From positions 1-40,648 of the forward strand of contig JAJFUB010000014.1 in the NCBI GenBank assembly GCA_021372615.1: DNA of 40,648 nucleotides, read 5' to 3'. This DNA comes from a bacterium. Its GTDB lineage: Bacteria; Armatimonadota; Zipacnadia; Zipacnadales; UBA11051. Both the position numbers and the translations under genes were made by a program. The notes under the pieces are model-generated. The model was not told where the DNA came from. It made no database searches and saw only the letters and a list, made by a program, of their open reading frames with translations. This document shows positions 2,716 to 29,704 of the stretch, piece after piece; within the stretch, counting starts at the first letter, position 1, and every line of letters starts with the position of its first letter.

Positions 2716-4356
2716 ATGCGCAAGATCAAGCGAGCGTTGCTGAGTGTGAGCGACAAGTCCGGCATCGTGGATTTCGCCCGGGCCCTGGTGGAGATGGGCG
2801 TGGAGATACTGTCCACCGGCGGCACCCGCCGGCAGCTCGCCGAAGCCGGCGTGCCGGTCCGTGCGGTCGAGGAGTACACGGGCTTTCCCGAGATCATGGA
2901 CCACCGAGTCGTGACGCTGCACCCCAAGGTGCATGGCGGGCTGCTGGCCGTCCGCGACAAGCAGACCCACATGGCCGAGGCGGAGCAGCTCGGCATCGAG
3001 ATGATTGACATGGTGGTGGTCAATCTCTACCCCTTCCAGCAGACGGTGGCGCGCGAGGGCGTGACGCTGCCGGAAGCGGTCGAGAACATTGACATCGGCG
3101 GGCCGACGATGCTCCGGTCGGCGGCCAAGAACCACAAGTATGTCGCCGTCGTGTGCAGCCCCGCCTACTACGACGCGGTGCTCGAGGAGATGCGCGCCAA
3201 CGGCGCCGCCCTGAGCGAGAAGACGCGGCAGAAGCTGGCCCTGGAGACCTTCGCCCACACCGGGCAGTACGATGCGGCCATCGCGCAGTACCTCTCGATG
3301 GCCTTCGCCGAAGAGGCAGCGACTTTCCCCAAGTACCTGGCCCCGTGGTACGTCAAGCGCGGCAGCGACCTTCGCTACGGCGAGAACCCCCACCAGGCCG
3401 CGGCCCTGTACGCCCACCTGGGCGCCCACGAGCCGGGCCTGGCGCTGGCGGAGAAGGTCTCCGGCGAGAAGGAGCTGTCCTTCAACAACTTCCTCGATCT
3501 GACCGCCGCCATGGAAGCGGCGCGGGACTTCTCTGAGCCGACCGCGATCATCGTCAAGCACCTCAACCCCTGCGGCGCGGCTTCGGGCGCGACGCTGGCG
3601 GAGGCTTTCGCCGACGCCTGGGCCGCTGACCCGATCTCGGCCTTCGGGGGCGTCATCGGCGTCAACCGCGTCGTGGATGTCCAGACCGCGCAGATGATCG
3701 GCAACGCCCAGATGCTGCAGGATGTCATCGCCCCCCGCTACCGCGAGGAGTCCGGGGACTTCGAGAGCACGATCCTGGCGGCGTTCGTCGAGGCGATCAT
3801 CGCGCCGGGCTACGAGCCCGAGGCGCTGGAGCTGCTGCGCAAGCACAAGAACATGCGCGTGATGGTGCAGCCGGACTTCGCCCCCGCGGGGCGCGGGAAG
3901 GACTTCGACATCAAGAAGATCCCCGGTGGTCTGGTCGTGCAGACCCCGGATGCCCAGAGCGTCAACAAGCTCGACCTGAAGGTCGTCACGAAGCAGAAGC
4001 CGACCGACGAGCAGCTTGAGTCGCTGCTGTTTGCGGACAAGATCGCCAAGCACGTCAAGAGCAACGCCATCGTGCTGGTGCAGGGCAAGCGCCTCGTGGG
4101 GTGCGGCGCGGGGCAGATGAGCCGGGTGGACAGCTCGGTCATCGCGGCCCGCAAGGCCGGTCAGCGCGCGGCGGGGTCGGTGCTGGCGTCGGACGCGATG
4201 TTCCCGGCGCGCGACGGCCTGGACGCCGCGGCGCAGACAGGCGCGGTGGCGATCATCCAGCCGGGCGGCTCGATCCGCGACGCCGAGGTCATCGAGGCGG
4301 CCGACGAGCACGGGCTGGTCATGGTCCTGACGGGGATGAGGCATTTCTGGCATTGA
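2716..4356 (+). CDS. purH: Bifunctional AICAR formyltransferase / IMP cyclohydrolase
   Basis: The 546-residue product performs the last two steps of de novo IMP synthesis: formylation of AICAR with 10-formyl-THF, then ring closure. Residues about 1-150 are the MGS-like cyclohydrolase domain ([36 protein letters not shown]). The rest is the formyltransferase domain, including the catalytic Lys-His pair at 281-282 in IVKHLNPCG and the C-terminal [13 protein letters not shown]...MRHFWH signature. Length is normal for the family. GGAGG six bases upstream fixes the ATG. The gene has its own consensus promoter. Unusually, its last 148 bp occur again at 5670-5817 behind an unrelated ORF. glyA lies close downstream, linking it to one-carbon folate supply. 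Confidence 0.97.
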
Positions 4357-4365
4357 GCGGGGGGC

Positions 4366-5490
4366 ATGATGGCGAGAAGCGTTCGGCTTGGTCGACGACG
4401 TGAGCCGACGGAGCACTGGAGCGACAGGACCATCGCGTGGTGCGGAGTGATGGTCGGGTTCCTCGGCATCCTCCTCGGCGCGTTCTCATGGCTCGCCGCC
4501 CGCGAGGCTAACCGGATCGCGGACGAGGCCAACGCACTCGCCCGAGAGTCCAACCAGATATCCAGGCAGGCCTGCGACCTGGCAAGCAAACAGACGGCTC
4601 TCCAGGAGAGCGTCGAGCAGCGTGAACTCGCCCAGCAGACGGTGCTTCGGCTGGACGCCATCAAGTTCGAGGGTGTGCGAAAGCCGCTGCAGGTTACGTT
4701 CAAGCCCGTGGTGCAGGGCGGCTCGGTTGTTAGGAACGTGCAGGTCACTCTGGGCCTGCTCAATGCGAGAACACCTGAGGCTGGGCTCGCCAGACCCGAT
4801 GGTTTCTTCAGCGGATGCTGGTGCCTGCAGAGGCATCTGTCCAGTAGCGAGAGCCCCTTCACTGTAGCGGCGACCGTCAACGACCTCAGCTATGGCATTG
4901 TGCAGTTCCGCTACCGAATGACGTGGCAATATGGGGAGGCAGCGACGGGCAAGTGCTACGGGGAGATCAGCTATCTGCACGTGTCCCGCTGGGCAGCGGT
5001 TCGTAGAGTGGCGGCGCCTGTAGCCGGCAGACCCGTACCCGATCTTTCGTCCTTGGTCGTCGCGACTTCGGCGGCCAAGAACGGCTACGTGCCAGTTTCC
5101 TGGATCGGGCGGCAGGACGGGCAGGTCCACACGGGTAATGCCCGAACAGACTCCCTGCAGCGGCAAGGGCTCATAGACAACATGTCGTCGAGCGGGCAGG
5201 GGACGGTTGATGCGGGGACCGGCTATCGCGACGTTGGCGCGCGGTTCGGCCCCGGGACCGACGAGGGCGAAGCCGGCAGGCTCATGGCGGGGACGACAGT
5301 GTGCTTTGATTGCCGTGTAGGGGACTGGCTTCACCTGTCTGACAATCGTTGGGTTGCTGCGCGGTGTGTCAGGTACAACGTGGGTCTGAGCAAGGGCCAG
5401 ATGGTTCGGCCGACAGAGGGCTACACGCTGTTAGGGAAGACCTGGTGGTGTAGCGTCAACGGGCTCTCGGGAGCCGGCCCCGCTCCGTGA
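4366..5490 (+). CDS. Orphan membrane-anchored coiled-coil protein with SH3b-like C-terminus
   Basis: The 374-residue product is not recognisable as a whole. It has one transmembrane helix at about residues 25-47, then a heptad-like Ala/Glu/Arg/Gln-rich coiled coil (about 48-95), a beta-rich middle, and a C-terminal segment (about 275-335) resembling a bacterial SH3 domain: [19 protein letters not shown], then a GDWL...WVAARCV pattern. It starts 9 bp after purH with only a weak G-rich ribosome site; ATG 4369 is an alternative start. It sits between purH and a duplicated purH 3' end. Its codon third positions look less GC-biased than its neighbours, which suggests foreign origin. The same frame stays open after the TGA for another 108 codons, into the purH remnant. 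A surface sensor or scaffold is possible; no function can be assigned. Confidence 0.6.
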
Positions 5491-5669
5491 ACAGGCGTCC
5501 GCGCAAGTACCGGCCTCGGACCACATCGAGCTTGGCCATCTGTTGCCTGCTGCTCGCTGCGGTCGCCCGAAGTTGACAAGATCGATGCCCTGCCGATCCA
5601 GCCGGACTTCGTGGTCGCGCTCGGTGGCAACATCGCCGGCGGGCAGGACCACGCGGTGCTGCAGGACGC

Positions 5670-5817
5670 GCGCGACGGCTTGGACGCCGCGGCGCAGACG
5701 GGCGCGGTGGCGATCATCCAGCCGGGCGGCTCGATCCGCGACGCCGAGGTCATCGAGGCGGCCGACGAGCACGGGCTGGCCATGGTCCTGACGGGCATGC
5801 GGCACTTCTGGCACTAG
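5670..5817 (+). pseudogene. Duplicated purH 3'-end fragment
   Basis: This 148-bp stretch matches 4209-4356, the end of purH, without gaps and with about nine mismatches (about 94 percent identity by hand alignment). It encodes the same C-terminus, differing by one Val-to-Ala change. Codon choices differ silently (ATG AGG CAT versus ATG CGG CAC), as does the stop codon (TGA versus TAG). An open frame reaches back from 5670 to 5491. A GTG at 5611 would give a 68-residue peptide, but the upstream part ([17 protein letters not shown]) is not alignable to purH with confidence. The fragment lacks every catalytic residue, so it is a remnant. It could be the displaced end of the resident gene or an imported allele end. 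Confidence 0.85.
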
Positions 5818-5877: not shown

Positions 5878-6264
5878 GTGACCGAGATCAGCGACTTCAA
5901 GCAGTTGGATGCCTGGCAGAAGGGGCGGGACCTCGTCCAGATCATCTACGGGATCACGTTGCGCTTCCCTGGAGCCGAGCGCAATGCGCTGGCCAGCCAG
6001 ATGCAGCGGGCAGCGATCTCCGTCCCTTCGAGCATCGCCGAAGGCTACGGCCGCGGCACGCGGCAGGAGTACATGCATTCCCTGCGTCTCGCCCGGGGCT
6101 CGCTGTGCGAGCTGGAGTCCCAGTTGATCCTGGCGCACGACCTGGGGCTCATCGCCGACCCGGAGCCGATCAGCGTCGTGATCCGTGACACGCACCGCCT
6201 GTTGCACGGTCTCCTGAGGGCGCTGCATCGGCCCCCCGGAGACGGGAAGGAAGTCTCACAGTGA
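5878..6264 (+). CDS. Four-helix-bundle protein (23S rRNA intervening-sequence protein family)
   Basis: The 128-residue product has hallmarks of the S23/IVP family: FKQLDAWQKG, then SQMQRAAISVPSSIAEGYGRG, then SLCELESQL. These proteins fold as a pentameric four-helix bundle. They were first found inside 23S rRNA intervening sequences but mostly occur as free genes of unknown role. Start choice: AGGAGG (5867-5872) lies five bases before the GTG at 5878, whereas the closer ATG at 5873 runs straight into a stop. It lies directly after the purH 3' duplicate and is probably part of the same accessory block. It is not embedded in an rRNA gene here. Confidence 0.88.
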   Translation: MTEISDFKQLDAWQKGRDLVQIIYGITLRFPGAERNALASQMQRAAISVPSSIAEGYGRGTRQEYMHSLRLARGSLCELESQLILAHDLGLIADPEPISVVIRDTHRLLHGLLRALHRPPGDGKEVSQ

Positions 6265-21203: not shown

Positions 21204-21224
21204 CGCGAGAGGGTGCACCACGCC

Positions 21225-21587
21225 ATGAGTGACGACCAGCCGACGTACACGACGCTGGATGGCTCGCTGATCCGCGAGATCATTCGCCCCGAGCGGCAGG
21301 GCAGCCGCCACCTGAGCCTGGCCGAGGCCACGATCGCGCCCGGCCAGTCCACGACGCGCCACCGCCACCGGCAGTCCGAGGAGGTCTACTTCGTGCTAAG
21401 CGGCGAGGGGATCGTCGAGGTGGCCGCGCGGCAGCAGCCGGTGCAGACGGGCGACGCGGTGCTCATCCCCCCCGGCGCCGAGCACCGCGCCACCTGCCTG
21501 AGCAACACCCCCCTCCGCCTCCTGTGCCTCTGCAGCCCGCCCTACCAGCACGAGGACACGGAGCTGACGGAGGGAGTCGTGGTGTAG
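21225..21587 (+). CDS. Small single-domain cupin
   Basis: The 120-residue product is a one-barrel cupin. Motif 1 runs from PGQSTTRHRHRQSEEVYFVL to GEG, with metal ligands His46, His48 and Glu52/53. Motif 2, near residues 76-88, is GDAVLIPPGAEHR with His87. Such proteins act as small metal-dependent isomerases, dioxygenases or sugar-binding modules, and substrate cannot be inferred. ATG 21225 is used; a GTG at 21213 directly abuts the GAGAGGG ribosome site and is too close. The final 111 bp recur at 22753-22863, and a copy of the dispersed inverted-repeat end begins nine bases after the stop. Confidence 0.88.
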   Translation: MSDDQPTYTTLDGSLIREIIRPERQGSRHLSLAEATIAPGQSTTRHRHRQSEEVYFVLSGEGIVEVAARQQPVQTGDAVLIPPGAEHRATCLSNTPLRLLCLCSPPYQHEDTELTEGVVV

Positions 21588-21596
21588 CGGGACGGG

Positions 21597-21621
21597 GAGT
21601 TAAGTATGGTGTCCCCGAGAT
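21597..21621 (+). repeat. Solo end of the TTAAGTATGGTGTCCCC repeat family
   Basis: The core TTAAGTATGGTGTCCCC preceded by GAG lies nine bases after the cupin stop. The same cupin-end-plus-repeat arrangement recurs at 22753-22891. From memory this core resembles short intergenic repeats found near REP-type (Y1) transposases in other bacteria; no transposase is present here. Confidence 0.85.
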
Positions 21622-21710
21622 TCCGGGATTCCCGAGATGCCTGATCTCCGGGATCAGACATGACGGGTGCGTTCGAATGGGCGCAGGTTAGCCCGGGTGG
21701 GAGGGTCCTC

Positions 21711-22577
21711 GTGTCTACACGCGAAGCCATTGCCGCCATACGCAAGCGTATGGAGAGACTACAACCGGTGGTTCTCCTGTGGCAAGATAGCCAGCACGAA
21801 CAGGCGTCGGCCTGGGCGGACGTGTGTCCCCTTGATGACAGTACCGTAGCTCTGGCACCGATCCGCGGGACCAAAGGCATTCCGGGTGGCGTCTTCCAGG
21901 CCCGAGTCGTGTTCACAGTACCCCACTCATCAACCGTCATGGAGATTGCGGGGACAGCTTCTCGCGAGGAACTGCCGCCCTTGCACACCGGACTGACGAA
22001 GGCCCTCTCAATGGGGTCACACGGCGGCCCGTGGTCTCGAGACGTCGGCCTGTCTGAGGCAGTGAGAATGGTAGTCGATGGCGCACGGGAGTGCGCTATT
22101 GGCGCCTGTCCGCCTTCGCACTTGGCCGAACTGGGTCTGCGCGTACCCTTCAGCCTCCCGTTCACCGATGCAGCCTCACTGGACACGGCTTCGCGTCTGC
22201 TGGAGGAGACGCTGTACGATCCGTGCTGGATCGACCATGATGAGAGTCAGCAGCAAGTGCGACTGAAGCTCTGGGAGGTGGACGCCGGAATATGCCGCCA
22301 CGGTATGTGTGCTGCCGTGCCCTGGGAACTGGAGATCAACTCAGTCGTATCGTTGCGAGTCCGCGATGAGACAGCTCTCGGTATGGTCGACTTCTGGGGC
22401 ATGACCTATACCTCACGTTCCCAGGTCATGCGTTTCCGGCGTAGACCTAGGTTTGGCCTGACCACTTGGAGGTATCCGCTTGTGGAACTGCGGGTAGCAG
22501 GGCTTGAGGGCGCTGTGCGCTCCTGCGGTCAAGCCACATGGGCGTGGGCGGAGAGCGACAGGGCGCGATCGCGGTAG
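21711..22577 (+). CDS. Orphan protein inside the cupin 3'-end duplication
   Basis: No family was recognised. The ATG at 21660 has no ribosome site and directly follows a small hairpin (CTGATC/GATCAG, 21641-21657), whereas GTG 21711 has GGGAGGG about six bases upstream. I therefore prefer 288 residues over 305. The protein is soluble, without signal or membrane helix, and mixed alpha/beta. It has a Cys/Trp-rich middle (YDPCWIDHDES, WEVDAGICRHGMC) and an Arg-rich stretch near RSQVMRFRRRPRFG. Codon third positions contain visibly more A/T than adjacent genes, which suggests recent acquisition. It is flanked by direct copies of the cupin 3' end and by repeat ends. A selfish-element protein, a nuclease or a cargo protein are all possible; none is supported by a motif. 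Confidence 0.55.
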   Translation: MSTREAIAAIRKRMERLQPVVLLWQDSQHEQASAWADVCPLDDSTVALAPIRGTKGIPGGVFQARVVFTVPHSSTVMEIAGTASREELPPLHTGLTKALSMGSHGGPWSRDVGLSEAVRMVVDGARECAIGACPPSHLAELGLRVPFSLPFTDAASLDTASRLLEETLYDPCWIDHDESQQQVRLKLWEVDAGICRHGMCAAVPWELEINSVVSLRVRDETALGMVDFWGMTYTSRSQVMRFRRRPRFGLTTWRYPLVELRVAGLEGAVRSCGQATWAWAESDRARSR

Positions 22578-22701
22578 CAGAGAGCGATGGCCTCAACCTG
22601 CCAGAGCGGGAACGCCTGTGACAGGCTCTACGCCGTGACGGCCACTGCGTCCAGCGACTACTTGCGGGACTACCGCCCGCCCGGCAACCAGCGTTGACGC
22701 A

Positions 22702-22891
22702 GTTGGGGGACGCCATACTTGACTCGCGCCGTCGGGGCAGGGGCATGCGAGGGCCGAACACCGCGCCACCTGCCTGAGCAGCACCCCGCTCCGCCTCCTA
22801 TGCCTCTGCAGCCCACCCTACCAGCACGAGGACACGGAGTTGACGGACGAGGTTGTGGCGTAGGGGGAGTTAAGTATGGTGTTCCCGAAAT
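22702..22891 (+). repeat. Inverted-repeat element enclosing the duplicated cupin 3' end
   Basis: The left end (22702-22725, GGGGGACGCCATACTTGACTC, here with a few changes) and the right end (22867-22891, core TTAAGTATGGTGTTCCC) are reverse complements with some mismatches. The left end continues as CGCGCCGTCGGGGCAGGGGC, nearly the same as the inside of the element at 26132-26234. Here, however, the interior carries 111 bp of cupin coding sequence. The right end runs straight into the AGAGGAGG ribosome site of the next gene. Confidence 0.75.
22753..22863 (+). pseudogene. Duplicated cupin 3'-end fragment
   Basis: This 111-bp stretch aligns without gaps to 21477-21587, with about 11 mismatches (about 90 percent identity by hand). 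It encodes the same last 36 residues with few changes (Asn to Ser, Glu-Gly to Asp-Glu, Val to Ala at the end). Most differences are silent, so the copy evolved under protein-level selection before arriving here. It has no start codon, metal ligands or barrel and cannot be functional. It mirrors the purH fragment at 5670-5817. Confidence 0.85.
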
Positions 22892-22905
22892 AGAGGAGGC
22901 GTGGC

Positions 22906-23946
22906 GTGACATCGAAGGAGCGCGTGCTGCGTAGCATTCGCCACGAAGCGGTGGACCGGACGCCCTATTACTACCTGGGGGGCCGCGTGGATGCGGCGCT
23001 GGCTCAGCGTCTGGGGGTGGCGGCGGGGGACAGCGAGGCATTGCTGCGATGCCTGGGCGCCGATGTGCGGTATGTGTGGCCGCGGCTGGTCCAGGCTCCC
23101 GGTGAAGTGCGGTACGGGTACAACTGCGGGGCCGTGCATGCCCGGCTGCACAACCAGCCGGGGGGACAGGGGCCAGCCATCTACCCCGTCGGCACGGCGC
23201 AGAACGTCGCGGACCTCGACCAGTGGCGCTGGCCCGACCCGGACTGGTTCGACTACGACGTTCCTGCCGACGTGGCCGCCGCCTGGCGCGACCAGGCGGT
23301 GGTGGCCTATGACATGGGCATCCTCTTCCTGTTCGCCATGGGCGTGCGCGGCCTGGAGCAGCTCATGATGGACATGGCGTGCGAGCCTGATCTGGCGCAC
23401 GAGGTGTTCCGGCGCATCGCGGAGTTCAACCTGGAGCGCACGCGGCGCTTCCTGACGGCGAATGCCGGGCTGATTGACATCCTGGGGCTGGGCGACGATG
23501 TGGCCGGCCAGGGCGGCATGGTCATCAGCCCGGCCATGTGGCGGGAGTACATGAAGCCCCACCTGCAGCGAATGGTTGACCTGTGCCGCGAGTTCGCGGT
23601 CATCCCCTACTTCCACGGGTGCGGGGGCTTCCGCGACCTGTACCCGGACTTCATCGAGATGGGCATCGCGTGCACGGGCAGGCTGCAGACCGAGGCCAGG
23701 GGGAACGACCTGGGGGACGTCAAGCGCCGGTTCGGGCGGGACCTGTGCCTGTGGGGCGGCATTGACGGGCAGCAGGTGACGGTGCGAGGCACGCCCGATG
23801 AGGTGCGCGACCACGTGCGAGCGGTGCTGCGCATCGGGGCGCCCGGCGGCGGCTTTGTCGCGGGCCCCACCCACAGCTTCACCGAGGACACCCCGATCGA
23901 GAACATCGTGGCGGTGTACGAGGTCCTGCGCCAGGCGGCTGAGTGA
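22906..23946 (+). CDS. Uroporphyrinogen decarboxylase-family protein (UroD/MtaA-like)
   Basis: The 346-residue product has the UroD TIM-barrel signature: N-terminal SKERVLRSIRHEAVDRTPYY, a central GVRGLEQLMMDM segment, DILGLGDDVAGQGGMVISP, FHGCGGFRDLYPDFIEMG (the HxCG-type metal/substrate loop), and the end motif PGGGFVAGPTHSF with the final ENIVAVYE helix. Such paralogues in carbohydrate-rich genomes are usually not heme enzymes. Many relate to corrinoid methyltransferases or have unknown substrates. The start is GTG 22906 with GGAGG six bases upstream, right after the repeat element. There are no other heme genes nearby, so a role outside heme synthesis is likely. Confidence 0.85.
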   Translation: MTSKERVLRSIRHEAVDRTPYYYLGGRVDAALAQRLGVAAGDSEALLRCLGADVRYVWPRLVQAPGEVRYGYNCGAVHARLHNQPGGQGPAIYPVGTAQNVADLDQWRWPDPDWFDYDVPADVAAAWRDQAVVAYDMGILFLFAMGVRGLEQLMMDMACEPDLAHEVFRRIAEFNLERTRRFLTANAGLIDILGLGDDVAGQGGMVISPAMWREYMKPHLQRMVDLCREFAVIPYFHGCGGFRDLYPDFIEMGIACTGRLQTEARGNDLGDVKRRFGRDLCLWGGIDGQQVTVRGTPDEVRDHVRAVLRIGAPGGGFVAGPTHSFTEDTPIENIVAVYEVLRQAAE

Positions 23947-26125: not shown

Positions 26126-26131
26126 AACATC

Positions 26132-26234
26132 AATTCGGGGACACCATACCTAACTCGCGCCGTCCGGGCAGGGGCACCGCGGTAGCCGAGGACCGCGTGG
26201 TCTATCCGGGAGTTAAGTATGGTGTCCCCGAAAT
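26132..26234 (+). repeat. Complete 103-bp inverted-repeat element (MITE-like)
   Basis: Two 25-bp ends (26132-26156 and 26210-26234) are reverse complements with two mismatches and contain TTAAGTATGGTGTCCCC and its complement. The interior is GC-rich and has no ORF. It lies between the convergent ends of the propeller gene and the minus-strand operon. The other copies in the window are at 21597, 22702-22891 and 29680. Confidence 0.85.
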
Positions 26235-26238
26235 AGAC

Positions 26239-29664: not shown

Positions 29665-29679
29665 GTCCATACTCCCTCT

Positions 29680-29704
29680 AATTCGGGGACACCATACTTA
29701 ACTC
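29680..29704 (-). repeat. Solo repeat end between two operon genes
   Basis: Read on the minus strand, the core TTAAGTATGGTGTCCCC preceded by GAG lies between the FAD oxidoreductase stop and the amidohydrolase ribosome site. The TAGAGGGAG site directly follows it, the same geometry as at 22867-22905 on the plus strand. Confidence 0.85.

Follow-up and report, generated by a model that had tools for sequence, protein, structure and literature searches.

How the 3' end of an intact cupin gene came to stand twice in the same orientation, on either side of an ORF without recognisable relatives, is the question raised by a locus in a contig of 40,648 nucleotides (the whole stretch analysed, in the following termed the window) from a bacterium of the class Candidatus Zipacnadia/WS1 within the Armatimonadota. 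The locus was compared with a sister unit at purH in the same window, with other genes of the same genome and with relatives of the class, the relatives being metagenome-assembled genomes.

Layout of the cupin locus

Direct-repeat comparison within the window aligns positions 21477-21592 with 22753-22868 (116 bp, 90% identity, spacing 1276), bearing out the original prediction that the cupin gene's final 111 bp occur a second time with about 11 mismatches in the same direction. The repeat end said to adjoin both copies is likewise present and turns out to be an arm of a palindromic element with dispersed copies; with it included, the repeat spans 21477-21621 and 22753-22891 (Table 1). Nothing like this pair is expected by chance, and except for the dispersed palindromic arms, no comparable non-coding repeat pair was found elsewhere in the window. 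Over the 108 sense bases, the two copies deviate at 11 positions, six of them silent and five in replaced codons, with four of the latter five falling in the last five codons. The mismatches, which had been described as mostly silent, are thus barely so when the cupin is taken alone.

Table 1. Features of the cupin and purH units, with positions in the window.
Feature	Position	Strand	Basis or remark
Cupin gene, target, intact, 124 aa, Cupin_2	21213..21587	+	Pfam E 3.3e-20
Cupin 3' end, copy 1 of duplication	21477..21587	+	Repeat and codon comparison
REP-like repeat arm 3' of cupin copy 1	21595..21624	+	Repeat family D9
Orphan cargo ORF, 305 aa (288 aa from GTG at 21711)	21660..22577	+	Low GC3, no matches
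Unit tail, cargo ORF to cupin copy 2	22578..22752	+	Contains left arm of palindromic element, 22700-22745
Cupin 3' end, copy 2, no start, 36 codons and stop	22753..22863	+	Open frame, stop retained
REP-like repeat arm 3' of cupin copy 2	22865..22894	+	Repeat comparison
URO-D family gene, presumably the former gene downstream of cupin	22906..23946	+	Pfam E 7.9e-25
purH, target of sister unit	2716..4356	+	Pfam
purH 3' end, copy 1	4207..4356	+	Repeat and codon comparison
purH-unit cargo ORF, 374 aa, hydrophobic N-terminal stretch, weak SH3-like match	4366..5490	+	
purH 3' end, copy 2	5668..5817	+	Repeat and codon comparison

Copy 2 is preceded not by cupin sequence but by the left arm of the palindromic element, and this tail element and the cupin share GCCGAG[G/C]ACCGCG at their junction (12/13 bp). 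Arms of the element (GGGGAGTTAAGTATGGTGTCCCCGAA) are dispersed over the window at 21595-21624, 22700-22745, 22865-22894, 26131-26237 and 29675-29704. A further pair on contig C125 (L009, 1501-2306) flanks a 234-aa ORF on the minus strand (1537-2241), which by its sequence resembles a REP-associated tyrosine transposase (RAYT).

Between the cupin copies lies, as predicted, a single unrecognised ORF with more A/T at third codon positions, its GC3 of 0.67-0.68 comparing with values of 0.90-0.96 for the cupin, the URO-D gene and the upstream gene. It has no match in Pfam, PADLOC or PDB, and relatives were found neither in 46 class genomes nor among GTDB contigs, IMG/VR, phages and plasmids. The proposed homology search and structure prediction on the 288-residue protein were unproductive, the structure predicted without alignment reaching a pLDDT of 32, which is meaningless as a fold.

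The rejected reading of copy 2 is that of a remnant of a full second cupin gene, i.e., of an old tandem duplication with deletion, which had been named as the finding that would overturn the prediction. A full-length search recovers a cupin homologue in 28 of the 46 class genomes, with exactly one in each of the 27 besides the window's own, and a C-terminal probe adds one weak match of 25 residues in genome G008 (E 3.5e-4). Upstream of copy 2 stands the repeat arm, not cupin. The search for an empty site, suggested in the form of a cupin directly followed by the URO-D gene, had a divided outcome. This neighbourhood is kept in no other class member within the 1.5 kb examined, and the genus of the window organism consists of one genome; hence, the empty-site test succeeds only at purH, where the nearest relative (L212) is empty. 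As a separate observation, genome G000 gives 57 matches to URO-D-family proteins, an unusually large expansion.

Recurrence at purH and at other genes

The purH locus 16 kb away had been said to share the plan of the cupin locus, which is confirmed by a direct repeat of 4207-4352 and 5668-5813 (96% identity, spacing 1461) and extends to other genes and genomes. Taken together, the sequences support reading the cupin locus as a probable insertion between two copies of a gene 3' end, on a plan common to purH. The 374-aa purH cargo has a relative with 30% identity in one genome of the same family. Between the purH copies of the window, six silent differences are found versus one replacement, and at the nine differing sites, copy 1 agrees with L212 at seven and copy 2 at two. 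The intact purH end hence looks resident and copy 2 foreign, where copy 2 might be the odd one either due to a crossover near the stop codon or because it has drifted. Two side observations concern the same region. At 5572-5667, about 32 in-frame codons run continuously into purH copy 2, as if a further gene fragment had been joined to it. At 5878-6264, between the purH fragment and glyA, a gene for a 23S rRNA intervening-sequence-type (S23/IVP) protein is found, absent from the empty site of L212 and possibly a second insertion at purH-glyA.

The purH contigs drawn from GTDB genomes put the organism close to Candidatus Zipacnadia/WS1 (Armatimonadota). Across the class, 41 genomes possess a purH end, and six of these, the window's included, are clear cases of a purH 3'-end duplication. 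One probable further copy in genome G023 is split between contigs (C48:224-358 and C683:7-111). The cargo varies from an MNT/HEPN (HepT-like) toxin-antitoxin-type pair (L207, 4319-4938, between purH and its duplicated 3' end) over a TIM barrel (L208) and an ADP-ribosylglycohydrolase (L210 and L221) to a 277-aa orphan (L211), and in these five loci, the truncated purH end comes after the first cargo. In every case, the cargo adjoins the purH stop codon, and the fragment always ends at the stop, while starting 33, 51, 63, 75 or 147 bp before it. Empty sites, with glyA following purH at a distance of 204-258 bp, are present in L203, L212, L220 and L259, the gap of 258 bp belonging to L212, whose PurH is 85% identical. 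The purH-glyA interval may be empty or hold a sialidase, TIM, MNT/HEPN, ADP-ribosylglycohydrolase or orphan genes. Both purH and glyA are retained at the insertion sites, meaning a duplication with no recipient deletion seen. Among 79 purH contigs (1.2 Mb), no purH fragment behind purH was found outside the Armatimonadota group, in about 35-40 loci of such other bacteria with at least 2 kb downstream. The candidate duplication L228/L280 from an alphaproteobacterial bin was discarded, being an identical overlap of contig ends (about 141 bp). Neither an integrase nor a transposase was found in the cupin and purH units and cargo families examined.

Scanning 2.3 Mb of the 6.4-Mb genome (36%) for direct repeats and for C-termini with a second copy downstream resulted in four 3'-end duplications, at the cupin, purH, glmS and a TM2/DUF4870-like small gene, each with one cargo ORF oriented as the target gene. 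The glmS repeat (171 bp, 92%, terminator hairpin included) flanks a GH18-like ORF. That of the TM2-like gene (119 bp, 84%) flanks an ankyrin-repeat ORF, its frameshifted fragment being uninformative on alleles for this reason. A mirror case is found in L123 (10371-10585 and 12283-12497), where the duplicated part is a gene 5' end (216 bp, 85%) around an inserted PMT_2-like membrane protein gene, the duplicate lying upstream of it. Further candidates, among them repeat proteins, were dismissed: the more sensitive scan's L104, L117, L181 and L182 are explained by paralogy, domains in common or shadow frames, the repeats of L075, L116, L151, L152 and L172 match prepilin-like or shared N-terminal regions, and those of L163 and L189 look like dispersed repeats. 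Probing the class with the glmS end gave only the window's genome and one unclear match (G002), which marks purH as a preferred site.

Transfer between species and divergence of the copies

The decisive pair are the ADP-ribosylglycohydrolase units of L210 and L221, which are 96% identical over 1,545 bp, from one base past the purH stop to the fragment start. Outside the unit, identity amounts to 81% in the last 75 bp of purH, and the downstream 200 bp are unrelated. L209, with a purH 89% identical to that of L210 and hence the nearer relative, does not have the unit. The higher identity of the unit compared to purH, together with its absence in L209, indicates that it moved horizontally between species. 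Within the purH fragment, identity drops from 92.5% in the first 40 bp to 80% in the last 35 bp. By this comparison, the transferred unit took part of the purH end along, the remainder of copy 2 being host-specific, and these edges fit what recombination of a unit-borne fragment with the host purH end would leave. Ahead of the fragment, the tail of the unit consists of a 45-bp remnant from a URO-D gene, which in L210 meets purH at GAGGAGGT, with about 8-11 bp shared. Microhomology is seen at the two junctions that have a reference for the tail, this one and that of the cupin with the palindromic element.

The divergence of the copies points in the same direction as alleles would. Over the sense codons of eight copy pairs, 28 differences are silent and 14 are replacements, compared to an expected silent share of 26% if both copies drift (P = 3e-8) and of 41% if only the fragment drifts (P = 6.5e-4), where the P values are indicative as sites were taken as independent and one unit was counted in two hosts (L210 and L221). 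The differences are thus mostly silent and resemble those between alleles of two species, as would not be anticipated from free decay of a duplicate made in place; at the cupin alone, the silent excess is weak (6:5).

The first alternative to be weighed against these data is insertion with long target duplication as proposed for Helicobacter restriction-modification genes, where the new gene enters at a break with long stagger and the target ends up on either side of it in copies that start out identical. It would give the same product, direct repeats of about 100 bp around a cargo, and agrees with the empty purH site in a relative. Nevertheless, we regard it as unlikely, considering the chiefly silent differences (28:14, P = 6.5e-4 for free decay of one copy), the duplicated purH segments ending at the stop codon every time and the L210/L221 unit carrying part of the purH fragment along.

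Alternatively, unequal exchange within one genome could make the orphan an old cupin neighbour and involve no foreign DNA, with a tandem duplication arising at the GCCGAG[C/G]ACCGCG microhomology, followed by deletion between repeat arms. The microhomology of cupin and palindromic element at the junction as well as the same repeat arm following both cupin copies are in line with this. However, two events are needed, the 10% divergence and the same plan at other genes are left unexplained, and at purH, the empty sites and the transfer between L210 and L221 exclude such an exchange, so that we give it a rather slim chance at the cupin.

Very improbable is a remnant of an integrative element whose tyrosine or serine integrase, aimed at gene 3' ends as with e14 in icd, has been lost or acts in trans. 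Such an origin would suit an insert flanked by gene 3' ends and the chiefly silent differences, but no unit has an integrase, units are one or two genes long, the start of the purH fragment varies over 33-147 bp, where an attachment core would be fixed, and four unrelated targets are used in one genome. An assembly artefact from mixed strains, conceivable in a genome of 171 contigs and with contig breaks that do occur at purH ends (as in the L228/L280 overlap), is hardly credible given that the structure is found in assemblies of several projects, on contigs of up to 163 kb, and that its copies diverge and its cargo differs from case to case.

Proposed mechanism and known systems

Hence, the explanation that we favour, and hold to be reasonably probable, is that the cupin locus represents a single-gene unit of horizontal origin that uses the target's own 3' end as its anchor and entered by a single crossover without integrase or transposase. 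A DNA fragment of a relative, comprising the last part of its cupin gene and the gene behind, would have been circularised by joining its ends at a short microhomology, or would have been taken from an existing unit. One homologous crossover within the cupin 3' end could then integrate the circle, the product being an intact cupin followed by the new gene and a truncated copy of the 3' end, for which neither an integrase nor a transposase would be needed. The flanking direct repeat might also allow the unit to exit as a circle of new gene plus gene end, which could integrate at that gene again in another place; the L210/L221 pair fits such pop-out and re-entry of a repeat-flanked unit.

What the sequences show directly is the anatomy, the fact that it recurs across several genes and several species, the horizontal movement of one purH unit with its edges at the purH stop codon and within the fragment, and the empty purH site. 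The comparison at purH is what backs transfer; the cupin unit belongs with the others through its anatomy, and its history would be carried over from purH. We infer, moreover, a circular intermediate, RecA dependence, natural DNA uptake and an origin of the cupin unit like that of the purH units. A comEC gene is found in the genome, which is a weak sign of DNA uptake as this gene is common in bacteria.

More tentatively, such units might be self-perpetuating cassettes free of a recombinase, combining one cargo gene with 30-170 bp of a conserved host gene's 3' end as portable address. Host recombination would cycle their circles between species and place the newest nearest the target, resembling integron cassettes, though with a core gene as attachment site. 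If units do cycle in this way, the ends of conserved core genes would serve, in different species of an uncultured phylum, as docking sites for accessory genes, the toxin-antitoxin-like pair among them. Single-gene insertions of this kind would be missed by most mobile-gene searches, which look for integrases, transposases or islands. The truncated gene end, in turn, is a scar open to mechanical searches of any genome, and from it a single-gene transfer, its target and the allele of origin can be read.

Comparison with known systems places the units close to several of them. Transposons and insertion sequences do not match, as no transposase is present and the REP arms at the cupin lie inside or behind the unit instead of at both ends. 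With integrative elements in gene 3' ends, such as e14 in the icd 3' end, the units share the gene end on both sides and the chiefly silent differences, whereas they have no integrase, a variable fragment start and single-gene cargo. Homology-facilitated illegitimate recombination combines one homologous arm with one microhomology junction (3-10 bp), to which the 8-11 bp in L210 and the 12 of 13 bp at the cupin may correspond, but usually deletes recipient DNA, while the units here duplicate, with no deletion seen.

Minimal mobile elements, as outlined in PMC3082526, are variable whole genes between conserved neighbours that are exchanged by homologous recombination in the flanks (Saunders and Snyder, 2002). 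The purH-glyA interval is alike in having whole-gene cassettes between conserved genes and no mobility genes. In contrast, the units leave a truncated 3' copy of the upstream gene, one gene end providing both arms, and for L210/L221 identity breaks off at the purH stop and in the purH fragment, with unrelated downstream flanks. Insertion with long target duplication (Nobusato et al., 2000, as cited in PMC1643837) likewise yields a cargo gene between long direct repeats of host sequence. Unlike there, the copies at purH and in the pooled data look like alleles from two species, and the cargo takes part of the fragment along. In E. coli, partial lacZ duplications of 109-950 bp were the prevailing outcome with a non-replicating plasmid bearing a lacZ end and were ascribed to single crossovers of recircularised molecules lacking part of the lacZ end (PMC3240628). 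As in the units, a partial gene-end copy stands beside the incoming DNA. The E. coli case, however, is a laboratory outcome, whereas the units described here are natural, recurrent and pass between species.
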